NCBI GenBank assembly: GCA_947623665.1
Contig: CANQHJ010000004.1
Location: forward strand, 1-38,849
DNA: 38,849 nucleotides
Direction: 5' to 3'
Source: an uncultured Bacilli bacterium
GTDB taxonomy: Bacteria > Bacillota_I > Bacilli_A > RF39 > UBA660
Of the stretch, positions 6,028 through 35,970 are shown in pieces. Every line of letters begins with the position of its first letter. Within the stretch, counting starts at the first letter, position 1. A program made the translations under genes and the position numbers. A model generated the notes under the pieces. That model had not been told where the DNA came from. It was given only the letters and a program-made list of their open reading frames with translations, and did not search any database.

Positions 6028-7221
6028 TTAATTAATCAATGAACTTAAATCATAAAACGTTTTATCTTTTTTCATAGCAATTGTAGTAGCGCCTCCTCCT
6101 CCGTTTTCAAAATAGAAAGAAGTTCTGTGAAACTCTTCAATATCTGTTACATTTGGAATTTGTTTTGTTGTTATAGTATTTGTTGAAATATGATCTTTTT
6201 CAATAATATCAAATAAATCTATATATTCAACACTACCATCTTCCATTAGAAAAAGTATGTTTCCTCCACCTTCATGTCCAAATATTCCTCTATAACCACT
6301 CTTAATCTTTTTTTGAAAACCTAATACATCAATTCTTCTGGCATTTTCATAATTATTTATATTTAATATGCTCATAAATTTATCCCAATCGATATTTAAG
6401 ACGGCATGCATTTTATCTTCACTGATTTGAATATCTAATCCTTCTTCTTTTGTTTCTATTTCTTTATATCCTCCAAAAATTGCATTTGGTGTATTTATAC
6501 ATTTATTAGAATCTAATGGAATTAATTCTTCTTTTAACTTTTTTTCTTCCATTTGATTGATTGCTAATGACAAATCATAAAATGTTCCATCTTTTTTTGC
6601 TCCAACTACTTTCTTTTCTCCTAATCTTGTAGGAGAGACTTTTGCATTATATATTTTATAAATATCTTCTATTTCATCTATTTTTTGAACTGAGGCAGTA
6701 TTTTTATCATCAACATTAAGTTCATACTCTGATTTGTTGAAATTAAATAATTCAACATATTCAATACTATTATCTTCCATTATGAAGAAAAGTATTGTTC
6801 TTACTGCATAGCCATAATCTCCAATAAATGATTTTTTTATTTTTTTAGAAAATCCATCTATTAAAATATTTTCATTATCCTTTGTGCTATAGTTTTTGTT
6901 AATTCCAGTATCTTTACTTTTGAATTTTTTCCAATCGACATTTAAAATGGCACTTTTCCTATCTTCATTTATTTTTATAGTTAAACCATAATCTCCTTGC
7001 TTTTCAGTAAAGTTGCTATATTGGAATTCATCAGTATTTAAACATTTACTCAATTTAATTTTTACTTTCTTTTTCTTCTCTTCTATTTTTTTAGTTTTTG
7101 TTAAATTAATATTATTTTTATAAATTAAAAAAGCATATGTACTTAGCATTATAATATATAGTAATAAAAGTACTATTATAATTATTATACTCTTCTTATT
7201 TTTATTTATATTTGATATCAT
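6028..7221 (-). CDS. Membrane-anchored extracytoplasmic protein with a duplicated unknown domain
   Basis: Not a family I recognise. One N-terminal membrane segment (about residues 11-33, SIIIIIVLLLLYIIMLSTYA) follows a Lys-rich start, so the remaining 360 residues are probably outside the cell. That part is an internal tandem duplication. Copy 1 (about 70-225) carries GLTIKINEDRKSAILNVDW, IEYVELFNF and KKDGTFYDLS; copy 2 (about 245-397) carries GLDIQISEDKMHAVLNIDW, VEYIDLFDI and KKDKTFYDLS. Each repeat ends in a Gly-rich or charged strand plus FYDLSxxIN. The protein is encoded alone, with an SD (AGAAGGGG) about 10 nt upstream. Confidence 0.75.
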   Translation of the reverse strand: MISNINKNKKSIIIIIVLLLLYIIMLSTYAFLIYKNNINLTKTKKIEEKKKKVKIKLSKCLNTDEFQYSNFTEKQGDYGLTIKINEDRKSAILNVDWKKFKSKDTGINKNYSTKDNENILIDGFSKKIKKSFIGDYGYAVRTILFFIMEDNSIEYVELFNFNKSEYELNVDDKNTASVQKIDEIEDIYKIYNAKVSPTRLGEKKVVGAKKDGTFYDLSLAINQMEEKKLKEELIPLDSNKCINTPNAIFGGYKEIETKEEGLDIQISEDKMHAVLNIDWDKFMSILNINNYENARRIDVLGFQKKIKSGYRGIFGHEGGGNILFLMEDGSVEYIDLFDIIEKDHISTNTITTKQIPNVTDIEEFHRTSFYFENGGGGATTIAMKKDKTFYDLSSLIN

Positions 7222-21837: not shown

Positions 21838-23502
21838 TTATTTAAACCAGAAATTATTAAAATCATATTTTAGAACACGATAGACCATATATTTATTCAT
21901 TTTAGCAGTATATTTTCTAATTAAATTATGTTCTTTATCGTATTCTGCGAATATTCCTTGTGTTCCGGAATCTGTTATTATATTGTTATTAGACATTGTC
22001 TGTACACTACTAACAATTCCTGAATATTCTACTGGAAAACTATCTACAAGTTCAAAAGTTTTTTCATTTTCATTTACTTTATATACATAGTAGTATGACT
22101 CGTCTCCTTTAAATGGATTATTATTTTCTATACCAATAGTTTTATAATCAAATTTAGGTTGACTGTTTGATACTCCATAGTTATTATCAAAAAACGTTAA
22201 ATAGAATTCTCCATCTTCTTCTCCTTTTGTATATCTTACACTATGTTGTCCAGCATGTATTTTAAAGTCTCCTACTTGATTAAATACTAAATCAGCAAAT
22301 TCTGTATCTTTCCAAAATTCTTTATTTGATAAGATATATTCTACTTTAGGATTTTCTAAAATGTTAGATACTTTTATTATAGAAGAAGTTTCTCTACTAC
22401 TTAAGAATACATCTCCATCTACATATTCAATAGAGTTTAGATGTAACCAATCTAGTCCATCTTCTCCTTCATCTCTTTGGCTCTTAGTATCTAGAGTACA
22501 AGTTTCTACATAACTTTTAAATATATCTTCAAAGTCAACTAGTTCTGTTACTTTACCAGTTTTTCTATCTATTTTTATAATACAATCTTCTTCTGTTTCC
22601 TTTTTAGTGTTGTTGGCAAGAACTAAAATATTTCCATCTTTATCAAAAGTATAATCATGATGAAGTTGATAATTACCAGTACGATAAATTTTTGTAACAC
22701 GTCCTAGATTGTTGATTTCTGCAATTTTTTTCTGAGAAATACTAAAATACATTTTGTCATCATCAAATAAAATTCTATGAGCTCTATATCCTATTATTGG
22801 AGTTTCACTTCTAAGTATTCCATCATTGTCATATAATGCAAGATAATCTTTTTCATCAGAATCATTACCTAACATTGTGAAAAGTCCATTACTTAACTCT
22901 TCTGTACTTTCTCCATTTTCTACTTTTAATTTTTTCTCTCCTAAAACTTTTTCTTTTTCTAAATTAATATTAAATGAGTAACTTTTATTTTTATCATTAG
23001 TAGATATATCAATACTTACTTTATTTTGCTTTTCTGGTGAGAGTCCTATTAACTGATAAGCACTTTTATCATCTTTGTCTACTAGTGTTTTAGAAAAATC
23101 ATTAATATTTTTATTAGATGATTTAACTGTATATTTTAAATCATTAAAACTTTCACTTTCTTTAAAATAAACATTTACACTTAATTCATTTGTACCATAA
23201 GGGTTATAAAAAACTATATAGTCATCTTTCATGGATTCAATAAATGTATTTATTTTTTCATCTACTACTTGTTGAAATTTTAAATTATAAATAGAAATAT
23301 TATCATCTTTTTTTACTCTATAAATATTTTTACCTAAAGAGTTATCTTTTATAATATTTACATTTTTTCTAATCCAATCAATATCCTTTACATTATCTTT
23401 TAATATTTTCTTATCTAAAAATAATATAGATACTCCTAATACAATTATTATTAATAAAAATTTTATTACTGTAGTTATTTTTTGTTTTGTCTCTTCTTTC
23501 AT
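21838..23502 (-). CDS. Membrane-anchored aryl-sulfate sulfotransferase (ASST family)
   Basis: ASST moves a sulfuryl group from one phenolic sulfate to another phenol without PAPS, through a sulfohistidine. The 554-aa protein has one N-terminal membrane segment (about 14-30), a family N-terminal beta domain, and a six-bladed propeller. Residues matching the active site of the E. coli enzyme are present: HH281-282 (YQLHHDYTF), H354 (DWLHLNSIEY), R370 (FLSSRETSS) and the sulfate-accepting H420 (HAGQHSVRY). The Gram-positive version is tethered outside the membrane instead of being periplasmic; no dsbL/dsbI-like partner is nearby. It is the first gene of an operon with the response regulator and kinase. 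Confidence 0.9.
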   Translation of the reverse strand: MKEETKQKITTVIKFLLIIIVLGVSILFLDKKILKDNVKDIDWIRKNVNIIKDNSLGKNIYRVKKDDNISIYNLKFQQVVDEKINTFIESMKDDYIVFYNPYGTNELSVNVYFKESESFNDLKYTVKSSNKNINDFSKTLVDKDDKSAYQLIGLSPEKQNKVSIDISTNDKNKSYSFNINLEKEKVLGEKKLKVENGESTEELSNGLFTMLGNDSDEKDYLALYDNDGILRSETPIIGYRAHRILFDDDKMYFSISQKKIAEINNLGRVTKIYRTGNYQLHHDYTFDKDGNILVLANNTKKETEEDCIIKIDRKTGKVTELVDFEDIFKSYVETCTLDTKSQRDEGEDGLDWLHLNSIEYVDGDVFLSSRETSSIIKVSNILENPKVEYILSNKEFWKDTEFADLVFNQVGDFKIHAGQHSVRYTKGEEDGEFYLTFFDNNYGVSNSQPKFDYKTIGIENNNPFKGDESYYYVYKVNENEKTFELVDSFPVEYSGIVSSVQTMSNNNIITDSGTQGIFAEYDKEHNLIRKYTAKMNKYMVYRVLKYDFNNFWFK

Positions 23503-24938: not shown

Positions 24939-24970
24939 AGGTGATAATCGTAAAGATTACCACTTTTTTA
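24937..24970. terminator. Bidirectional terminator between the PepSY gene and the ADP-ribosylglycohydrolase gene
   Basis: AAAGGTGATAATC (24938-24950, first bases overlapping the stop) pairs with GATTACCACTTT (from 24955) through a GTAAA loop, followed by TTTTT. It serves the plus gene well and overlaps the stop of the minus gene. Confidence 0.75.
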
Positions 24971-25906
24971 TTTGTTATTTAAAACGTTTTCAAAATTGTT
25001 AGATAGTTCTTCTAGATATTCTCTTTTGGCAATGTCTTTTTTCCAATCTTCTGGTATGTCATCATAACCATATATTATTCCTACCATGGAACCTGTGATT
25101 GCTCCTATTGTATCTGTATCTCCACCTAAGTTTATAGCACCTATTATTCCCTCTTTATAGTTTTTAGCATTTAGCGTTACCCAAAGAGATGCTTCTAATG
25201 TATCAACTACATATCCAGTTGATTTTATTTCACTCATTTTTAATTTTTGAATATTTTCATTTAATATTCTTGAGAATACTTTTACATTACTTTTTTTAAA
25301 CATAGAATAATCTAACATTTTTATCATATTGTATGCTGAATATTTATCTTTTCCTTTTAAAAGAAATAGAATAAAGTTTATATAAATATAACAAGCTAAA
25401 ATACTTATTTCATGTCTATGAGTAAGTGATGATATATTTTTTGTTAGTTCATATACTTCTTCTGGAGTGCTTTTTTTATAATATAGATAGTATGCAAGTG
25501 GTAGTATTCTCATTAAAGAACCATTACCATTAGCATCTATTTTATCTATTCCACACTCTAAAGGTTTTTCTTTATCTATTTCATATTTTTTTATTGCTTG
25601 TAGACAGGTTGCACCAATACCAAACATACTTCCTCCTGGTGTATATTTCCCTTTATTTAACCAATCTGTAAAATTGTTCATTATATCTTCATAATCTATA
25701 TCTTTTTTATTTATAATTGAATCAATTAAAGCTATTTCCAAAGAAGTATCATCTGACCAGTAACCTTTTGGGACTTGATGTATTCCATTTCCTAACATTT
25801 TCGTTACAGGTTTTTTTAATAATTTTTCTCTGTTGCAAAACTCTATAGGTACACCCATGGCATCTCCTATAGCGTGTCCTATTATACCATCTTTTACTTT
25901 AGACAT
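24968..25906 (-). CDS. ADP-ribosylglycohydrolase family protein
   Basis: 312-aa all-alpha hydrolase of the DraG/ARH family, which removes ADP-ribose from proteins or small molecules using two metal ions. Motifs: GHAIGDAMGVPIEF near the start, the metal site WSDDTSLE (about 48-55) and the second metal site GGDTDTIGAITGSMVGIIYG near residue 260. Length and spacing are normal. The target is unknown and no ADP-ribosyltransferase lies nearby. A TATAAT at 25938-25933 may be its -10 box. Confidence 0.93.
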   Translation of the reverse strand: MSKVKDGIIGHAIGDAMGVPIEFCNREKLLKKPVTKMLGNGIHQVPKGYWSDDTSLEIALIDSIINKKDIDYEDIMNNFTDWLNKGKYTPGGSMFGIGATCLQAIKKYEIDKEKPLECGIDKIDANGNGSLMRILPLAYYLYYKKSTPEEVYELTKNISSLTHRHEISILACYIYINFILFLLKGKDKYSAYNMIKMLDYSMFKKSNVKVFSRILNENIQKLKMSEIKSTGYVVDTLEASLWVTLNAKNYKEGIIGAINLGGDTDTIGAITGSMVGIIYGYDDIPEDWKKDIAKREYLEELSNNFENVLNNK

Positions 25907-28584: not shown

Positions 28585-28816
28585 CTTCCTAAAAATAAAA
28601 CAGTGATCATCCTATAAGGACGAATCACTGTAATCCGCGGTACCACCTTGTTTCTAGTTTCCTAGCACTTAATTAGATTAACGCTTCTTCCACGATTTGA
28701 CTCCATTATTGAAATTCATTTACTTGTCTTTCTTATGTGACTTTCAGTCGATGATCACACTTCCTTTAAGAGTATCAAGCAACTACTTAGATAATTTCTT
28801 CATCAATTAAAATTCA
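28585..28816 (-). ncRNA. T-box riboswitch leader of pheA, probable Phe specifier
   Basis: The T-box sequence AGGTGGTACCGCGG is at 28648-28635 (minus). It is followed by a terminator: ACAGTGAT (28631-28624) with ATCACTGT (28607-28600), then TTTTATTTTT. Stem I begins near 28800 with AAGTAGTTGC, and its 3' side holds GAATTTCAA, where the UUC at 28713-28711, followed by A, fits a Phe specifier. Uncharged tRNA(Phe) would stabilise the antiterminator and switch on pheA and the aminotransferase gene. Confidence 0.9.
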
Positions 28817-28822
28817 CTTTGA

Positions 28823-28851
28823 ATTATATTACTTTTATAATTATTTGTCAA
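28823..28851 (-). promoter_or_regulatory. Consensus promoter of the pheA T-box leader
   Basis: TTGACA (28851-28846), 17 bp, TATAAT (28828-28823). The -35 box overlaps the last codons of the XRE-ImmA gene. Confidence 0.85.
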
Positions 28852-29863
28852 TTACATGATTATATATCTGATATTCTTTACTATTATATTTTAAAAGATT
28901 ATCTTTAGCCATTCTGTATACAATGAATGATTTGGGATATTTTTTTTCATTTATAATATTATAATTGTTGTCTTTACATATTTCTTTATAATAATTATCA
29001 TCTATCATCCAACTGTATGCTTGATTATCTGCTTTAGTTTCTTTTTCTTCATCTTCAAAAGATATTAGACTTGTTGCTTGAGCTCTGTTGAAATCTGTTT
29101 TACAATGTGCAAGTTCATGTAAAAGTGCAAAATATATATCGGCTATTCTTTTATGTTTGTATGTTAAATATATAGCAGGAGTTTTTCTATGTACTTTGAA
29201 AGCTCCTCTTATTTTAGAACCTGGTATATCTTCTTGAATTACTAAAAATATTCCGTTTTCATTAAATTTTTTTATTAGTTTTTCTTCATCAAAAATATTT
29301 TTATTTGCACACTTTAAAATATATTTTACTAATACTTCTATATTTTCTTTTTTATATTCTTTTGGTGTTTGGTTTAAAGTTTCTTTATAACATTTTTCAA
29401 GCCATAGTAATAATAATTCTATTTTATCATTTTTACTTTTATAATAAGCTTTATTTTCTATTTCATAAATTTTTTTTGGACTTGTTACTCTTAAAAATTT
29501 TAAAATATCTTTTATTATTTCTGTTTTATCTGCAACATCAATAAATTCCATGTAATCTTCATTAATTAAATATTTATATTTAAACTTATTTAAAAATTGT
29601 GTTTCTGTTAAATTATTTTCTTTTAAATAATTTTCTATTTCTGTTTCTATTTTATAATCATTTTCTACTTTATAAATATAATCAATTGAAATATTAGTAA
29701 CCATTGAAATATCTTTTATAACTTTAGCAGATAATGGTTCTCCATTTAAAATATCTATTAAATGCTTAGGTGTAATATTTATTCTTTTGGCAAATTCTTT
29801 GTTTGAAATATGATAAAATTCTAAATAATCAAGCAAATAATCTTTGAATCTTATTTTTTTCAT
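28841..29863 (-). CDS. XRE-family HTH fused to an ImmA/IrrE metallopeptidase; probable HigA-like antitoxin
   Basis: 340 aa. N-terminal Cro/CI helix-turn-helix (about 10-60: ISNKEFAKRINITPKHLIDI, then LSAKVIKDISMVTNIS), a helical linker, and a C-terminal ImmA/IrrE domain with HELAHCKTD (HExxH) and a later Glu in EEKETKADNQA. Such fusions act as antitoxins or as regulators cleaved under stress. The gene directly follows a RelE/HigB-like toxin gene; the toxin stop is next to an ATG at 29872. I prefer ATG 29863, because GTGAG is 9-10 nt upstream, but 29872 is possible. A phage-repressor origin is an alternative, yet no phage or integrase gene lies nearby. Confidence 0.85.
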   Translation of the reverse strand: MKKIRFKDYLLDYLEFYHISNKEFAKRINITPKHLIDILNGEPLSAKVIKDISMVTNISIDYIYKVENDYKIETEIENYLKENNLTETQFLNKFKYKYLINEDYMEFIDVADKTEIIKDILKFLRVTSPKKIYEIENKAYYKSKNDKIELLLLWLEKCYKETLNQTPKEYKKENIEVLVKYILKCANKNIFDEEKLIKKFNENGIFLVIQEDIPGSKIRGAFKVHRKTPAIYLTYKHKRIADIYFALLHELAHCKTDFNRAQATSLISFEDEEKETKADNQAYSWMIDDNYYKEICKDNNYNIINEKKYPKSFIVYRMAKDNLLKYNSKEYQIYNHVIDK

Positions 29864-29873
29864 GATAATCATC

Positions 29874-30194
29874 TCACTTTTTTATATATTTTTTAAAGTC
29901 TTCATAATGATTGGTACTTATGAAAACTAATCTAATTATATTTAATTCTTCGTTTATTGAAAATATTAGTCTTATTTTCCCACTATTTTTACATAAATTA
30001 AAACTATAATATCCAGTTAAATCTTCTTTTAATAATTCAAATTTATATAATTTAGAAAATTCATGTTCACAAAGTTCTTGGAAAGTTTTACAATTTCTAA
30101 TATGTCTAATTACTTTTTCAAATTCTATTAATTCTTTATGGCGATTCTTTAATTTTTTCTCTTGTCTTTTAAAATTTGTTCTGTCTATCTTCAC
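29874..30194 (-). CDS. RelE/HigB-like toxin
   Basis: 106 aa, basic, with the RelE/ParE pattern: an N-terminal helical hairpin (NFKRQEKKLKNRHKELIEF) and a C-terminal sheet LTGYYSFNLCKNSGKIRLIF, then NIIRLVFISTNHYEDFKKYI. The last motif resembles the end of HigB/YoeB-type mRNA interferases. It should cleave mRNA at the ribosome, but the exact catalytic residues are not certain. I start at GTG 30194: SD AAGGAAGG is six bases upstream. An ATG at 30242 sits at the -10 box and would be nearly leaderless. The partner gene follows. Confidence 0.75.
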   Translation of the reverse strand: MKIDRTNFKRQEKKLKNRHKELIEFEKVIRHIRNCKTFQELCEHEFSKLYKFELLKEDLTGYYSFNLCKNSGKIRLIFSINEELNIIRLVFISTNHYEDFKKYIKK

Positions 30195-30238
30195 TTTTAA
30201 CCTTCCTTTTTTCTTTATTATCACCCTTTCTTCTTTAT

Positions 30239-30271
30239 ACATATATTAACATTTTTATTAATATATGTCAA
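30239..30271 (-). promoter_or_regulatory. Promoter and 11-bp inverted-repeat operator of the toxin-antitoxin locus
   Basis: TTGACA (30271-30266), 17 bp, TAATAT (30248-30243). The perfect inverted repeat ACATATATTAA (30239-30249) and TTAATATATGT (30258-30268) spans the -35 and -10 boxes, the expected site for autorepression by the HTH protein. Confidence 0.8.
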
Positions 30272-30281
30272 TTAATGTTAA

Positions 30282-30312
30282 AAAATAAATAAGTCTTTCG
30301 ACCTATTTATTA
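30282..30312 (-). terminator. Terminator of the gat-aspS-GNAT operon
   Basis: On the minus strand AATAAATAGGTC, GAAA, GACTTATTTATT, then TTTTT, overlapping the GNAT stop codon (30303). It ends 10 nt before the toxin -35 box. Confidence 0.85.
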
Positions 30313-35730: not shown

Positions 35731-35970
35731 CCTAAAAATAAAAACAGCCATTTATCCCATAAGGGACGAATGACTGTGAATCCGCGGTACCACCCAATTT
35801 ATCAATTTCTTGATCTCTTTATAGATAACGGTCTATTTCCGGCTTAGTCTACTTAATTTCTTTAAGCACTCTGAAGTGTTTTTCAATATAGTCTTTTTAT
35901 TATCTTTCACCACTATGATAACTCTCTTTGAAAAAGGTCTATATTTACTCCTCTTCGTCTTCGTTTTACG
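35731..35970 (-). ncRNA. T-box riboswitch leader of gatCAB-aspS, probable Asn specifier
   Basis: T-box sequence GGGTGGTACCGCGG at 35795-35782 (minus). Terminator: ACAGTCA (35777-35771) with TGGCTGT (35750-35744), then TTTTTATTTTT. Stem I distal part contains AGAGAGTTATC and the loop GTGGTGAAA. On its 3' side TTGAAAAACACTTC carries AAC (35880-35878) followed by A, the Asn codon in specifier position. A GAA (35884-35882) stands just before it. Uncharged tRNA(Asn) should raise expression of the enzymes that make Asn-tRNA. Confidence 0.88.

Follow-up and report, generated by a model that had tools for sequence, protein, structure and literature searches.

A conserved RelE-fold toxin-like gene paired with an Xre-ImmA/IrrE peptidase gene of a known toxin-antitoxin kind in an uncultured Bacilli bacterium

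Pairs of a RelE gene and a gene for a helix-turn-helix (HTH) protein fused to a Zn peptidase were described as recurrent by Makarova et al. (2009; PMC2701414), who predicted them to be toxin-antitoxin operons and proposed that the protease cleaves the Xre repressor or the antitoxin. PD-lambda-2, an abortive anti-phage defence system, consists of a HigB-like protein, an Xre-peptidase and a third component (Vassallo et al., 2022; PMC9519451). ImmA-type proteases have also been described as a hub of antitoxins, which was confirmed in RosmerTA, where ImmA domains serve as antitoxins; an HTH repressor is cleaved by ImmA, and HTH cleavage was suggested for this group (Ernits et al., 2023; PMC10440598). 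Single-stranded DNA (ssDNA) stimulates CapP and PprI (PMC10904395). The idea of a protease trigger is thus already published (Makarova et al., 2009; Ernits et al., 2023). Here we describe a locus at 28841-30271 of a 38,849-nucleotide stretch of DNA, called the window, from an uncultured Bacilli bacterium (contig CANQHJ010000004.1, assembly GCA_947623665.1). The locus is real, intact and conserved; it resembles a toxin-antitoxin module, is of a known kind and has a toxin of a YoeB-like branch. The presence of a RelE-fold toxin-like gene and an Xre-ImmA/IrrE partner under a predicted autoregulatory operator is well supported by the fold, the conserved linkage and the conservation of the operator.

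On the minus strand, the promoter and operator are followed by the toxin-like gene and then directly by the HTH-peptidase gene, and the coordinates, gene order and strand given for them in an earlier note on this DNA were found to be correct. The first gene (29874..30194, minus strand) encodes a RelE/YoeB-fold toxin-like protein of 106 aa with a GTG start, assigned by its fold model and by residues aligned with YoeB. Its open reading frame (ORF) has two possible starts, ATG 30242 (122 aa) and GTG 30194 (106 aa). The 122-aa reading was discarded, as its ATG falls within the -10 box and operator and would thus be outside the transcript; the GTG follows AAGGAAGG, and 106 aa is the better-supported length. 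The second gene (28841..29863, minus strand) encodes an Xre-family HTH and ImmA/IrrE-type zinc peptidase fusion of 340 aa, recognised by HTH_3, a HELAH motif and a PADLOC match. It starts at ATG 29863, a position common to its relatives; ATG 29872 would give 343 aa.

The small protein is basic (pI 9.5), and its AF2 model reached a pLDDT of 91.6. The best matches of this model in the PDB, found with Foldseek, were the toxins YoeB, RelE (RelJK, RelE1), HigB and YafQ (prob 1.0, E 3e-4), which bears out the RelE fold claimed for it earlier. Moreover, residues E53, K56, S64, R75, H96 and Y97 coincide with those of annotated YoeB in the alignment, a set whose Glu, Arg and His are catalytic in YoeB. 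An equivalent of R75 was observed in 27 of the 29 upstream partners compared, and a His in or beside column 96 in all 29. By sequence alone the protein fell below every Pfam cut-off, with ParE-like toxin, Txe/YoeB and phage RelE-like toxin families as the best sub-threshold matches, and searching the PDB by sequence with the toxin profile yielded chance matches only, so that the fold comparison was required. The RelE (BECR) fold, the basic character and the catalytic residues together place the protein in the RelE/ParE superfamily, and a role as ribosome-dependent mRNA interferase is the most likely one by fold and residues. The label "HigB" used earlier is imprecise, since neither HigB profile (PF05015, PF09907) matched the protein, which is closer to YoeB/Txe.

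The partner matched HTH_3 at residues 22-66 (E 3.7e-6) and carries the peptidase signature HELAH at residues 252-256 together with E278xxxD282 (343-aa numbering), the third-ligand Glu standing 22 residues after the second His of HELAH; the fusion of an HTH with an HExxH domain directly after the toxin-like gene is therefore as the earlier note had read it. With its N-terminal HTH, its C-terminal HExxH and the adjoining toxin gene, it has the build of the Xre-ImmA/IrrE (COG2856) fused antitoxins. H252, E253 and H256 were identical in 33/33 aligned fusions and E278 in 32/33, and since most of these proteins are only about 20% identical to that of the window, the protease chemistry is under selection. 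Peptidase_M78 was matched by 27 of the 33 homologues and not by the window protein, and the PADLOC profile PD-Lambda-2_B (PDLC03982) matched all 33, the window protein with an E of 5.7e-19. The modelled HTH resembles HigA antitoxins, some of them in operator-bound complexes.

The conservation of the pair was then assessed on loci (numbered L) gathered mostly with the antitoxin alone, so that the upstream genes were unselected; five plasmid loci were hand-picked. In 29/32 testable homologues the gene directly upstream of the fusion was a RelE-type ORF, about 94-127 aa long. The exceptions were L007, L016 and L051 (truncated ORF), and L032 lies at a contig end. When 30 upstream partners were scanned with Pfam, 16 matched HigB-like, 6 YoeB-like and 1 HigB_toxin families, several matches per member being possible. 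The pairs of three other species (L011, L012 and L013) share 62-67% identity with the window antitoxin and 41-48% with its toxin, and they stand in different neighbourhoods: L011 beside a type III-like restriction system, L012 after glycyl-tRNA synthetase and L013 between other genes. A further pair, L033, belongs to the same family as the window. The pair is patchy, being absent from two genomes of the same genus (84-85% complete) and from most of the family. This distribution fits horizontal spread, and the chromosomal module was probably acquired horizontally. No toxin relatives were found in viral contigs, and phage records gave only weak antitoxin matches (22-31% identity). An insertion-site comparison by means of the neighbours pheA and GNAT recovered the same neighbourhood in no relative examined, so that no empty site could be shown.

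The promoter, of the sigma-70 type with an extended TG (TTGACA-17-TAATAT; 30243..30271, minus strand), overlaps the predicted operator, a perfect 11-bp inverted repeat with an 8-bp spacer (30239..30268; ACATATATTAA-8-TTAATATATGT, found by exact match). The earlier note had placed this repeat over both promoter boxes; it is exact and spans the whole -10 box, but only half of the -35 box, namely its last 3 bases. When intergenic regions matched in length were simulated with a Markov model, 0.2-0.5% of them contained a perfect, short-spaced repeat of this size (P ~0.002-0.005), and since the whole window contains four others, the repeat alone is only moderate evidence. Its conservation is stronger evidence than this calculation of chance. 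The 29-bp promoter-operator block showed a mean identity of 88% over five loci (the window, L011, L012, L013 and L033), the flanks reaching 41% before and 44% after it. The left half of the operator falls within the promoter spacer, a stretch that promoter function alone would not keep constant, and in the more distant loci L034 and L035 both halves are altered symmetrically, from TATATTAAC/GTTAATATA to TATTATAAC/GTTATAATA. Promoter constraint may explain part of the conservation of the right half, which shares bases with the -10 box. Other palindromes, typically TTACC/GGTAA, lie near the promoter in many more distant homologues. The pattern is the trace expected from an autoregulating dimer of the HTH protein.

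The reading that we favour, with moderate confidence, is that of a chromosomal type II toxin-antitoxin module in which the peptidase would serve as the activation switch. The HTH of the partner would bind the inverted repeat as a dimer and repress the operon, probably together with the toxin, as suggested by the position of the operator, its conservation and the precedent of HigA, and the partner may additionally keep the toxin inactive by direct contact. A signal such as ssDNA or phage infection would then activate the intact ImmA/IrrE peptidase, which might cleave the HTH part of its own or of a neighbouring antitoxin molecule, so that the operon would be derepressed and the toxin freed, possibly in an anti-phage role. 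The peptidase switch is plausible, and is the least certain step. Four observations weigh against this reading: no separate repressor substrate is encoded nearby; the modelled peptidase resembles CapP, a repressor-cleaving protease, only weakly (E 0.03, TM <0.3); the middle of the antitoxin model, around residues 98-148, is of low confidence; and in PD-lambda-2 the Xre-peptidase alone was, unexpectedly, toxic and was rescued by the HigB-like protein (PMC9519451). Because of this last result the roles of toxin and antitoxin cannot be assumed, the small protein is not to be called a toxin by default, and the main risk to the reading is that the two parts are assigned the wrong way round.

A self-contained form of the switch, in which the ImmA/IrrE domain of the antitoxin would itself sense ssDNA or phage, cut its own HTH or linker and release the YoeB-like interferase without an outside protease or a third component, is possible, though we regard it as doubtful. 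The release of type II toxins is a long-standing question, most models of which rely on general proteases, and a widespread family with a conserved protease borne by the antitoxin makes a built-in trigger directly testable; the window carries a compact version that consists of two genes behind a clear operator, without an accessory gene. A conventional HigBA-like module is rather unlikely; its peptidase would add only stability or regulation unrelated to toxin release, while cellular proteases such as Lon or Clp degraded the antitoxin and freed the toxin. In gene order, operator and HTH the locus resembles HigBA, and host proteases degrade classical type II antitoxins, but an HExxH and a third ligand kept in essentially all of the 33 divergent fusions are hard to explain if catalysis is idle.

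We consider it unlikely that the roles are reversed as in PD-lambda-2, with the Xre-peptidase harmful through proteolysis or misregulation and the RelE-fold protein restraining it, perhaps as a co-repressor or inhibitor. The window antitoxin is homologous to PD-Lambda-2_B, with 26% identity over 276 columns to the copy of a Pseudoalteromonas plasmid (L018), but the near-complete YoeB-type active site kept in the small protein would be needless for a pure restrainer, and toxicity on overexpression of a repressor may have trivial causes. Moreover, the PD-lambda-2 toxin belongs to a different RelE subfamily, the PD-Lambda-2_A profile giving no match to the small protein of the window up to E 1, against 7e-50 for the L018 toxin. 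A decayed or non-functional remnant is very improbable, since the two window genes are intact and the module retains its catalytic residues, ribosome sites, promoter and operator, even if some homologues are broken by internal stops (L003, L008, L009 and L052).

The neighbours of the module in the window are housekeeping genes, with a GNAT acetyltransferase gene, aspS and gatBAC upstream and prephenate dehydratase downstream. A hairpin of 12 bp with a GAAA loop and a T run (30276..30311, minus strand; predicted fold -11.5 kcal/mol) is a terminator candidate; it was absent from the list given by a consensus scan. It is probably the terminator of the upstream GNAT gene and would isolate the promoter of the module. 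A T-box leader (28613-28809, minus strand), which at 64 bits (E 6.5e-14) falls short of the Rfam gathering score of 93, precedes prephenate dehydratase, and its perfect TTGACA-17-TATAAT promoter (28851-28823) overlaps the end of the antitoxin gene. A second, strong T-box leader (35759-35970, minus strand; 119 bits) lies upstream of gatC-gatA-gatB-aspS, and an ADP-ribosylglycohydrolase family gene (24968-25906, minus strand) lies downstream of the module. At L011 a HicB-like gene (6030-6437) comes right after the antitoxin, near the type III-like restriction system, in a possible defence cluster. The genome of the window also encodes a classical YefM-YoeB-type pair (L030, contig C22, ~22095-22358), and thus has two toxin modules of the RelE superfamily, whose antitoxins are unrelated.

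Among the described systems, HigBA, PD-lambda-2 and RosmerTA were rejected as memberships by profile tests and are kept as analogies. The locus shares with HigBA the toxin-first order, the RelE-fold toxin, an HTH resembling that of HigA and, at the promoter, a palindromic operator, but its antitoxin carries an added peptidase domain and both proteins are below the HigB/HigA cut-offs (HigA TIGR02607, 12.5 bits against 47.7). As in PD-lambda-2, a toxin-like gene comes first and a homologous Xre-peptidase fusion follows; a clear PD-Lambda-2 A/B pair was observed at L018 (NZ_CP098525.1, 1946-3436), at the very beginning of the plasmid record and beside a gene for a restriction endonuclease. By contrast, PD-lambda-2 needs its third gene C for defence, whereas the window module has two genes and no gene C; the gene that comes next encodes prephenate dehydratase and has a T-box and a promoter of its own. 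RosmerTA (RmrT/RmrA) likewise uses an HTH with an ImmA-type protease as antitoxin, but the RmrA profile gave no match to the window fusion up to E 1, and the toxin tested there is another protein, a membrane-depolarising toxin of phage Kita (PMC10440598).

The toxin residues and best fold matches are those of YefM-YoeB, from which the locus differs in its reversed gene order and in an antitoxin that is an Xre-peptidase and not YefM/Phd; the toxin scored 17 bits with YoeB/Txe TIGR02116, against a cut-off of 51.8. CapH/CapP, ImmR/ImmA and DdrO/IrrE also combine an HTH repressor with an ImmA/IrrE-type peptidase, but as separate proteins and with no RelE toxin attached. The RelE plus Xre-COG2856 operons, as far as the cited portion of Makarova et al. 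(PMC2701414) describes them, have the same gene pair, domain architecture and proposed role of the protease. The window locus does not differ from them in kind, and its YoeB-like toxin subgroup and conserved operator are details that go beyond that description.
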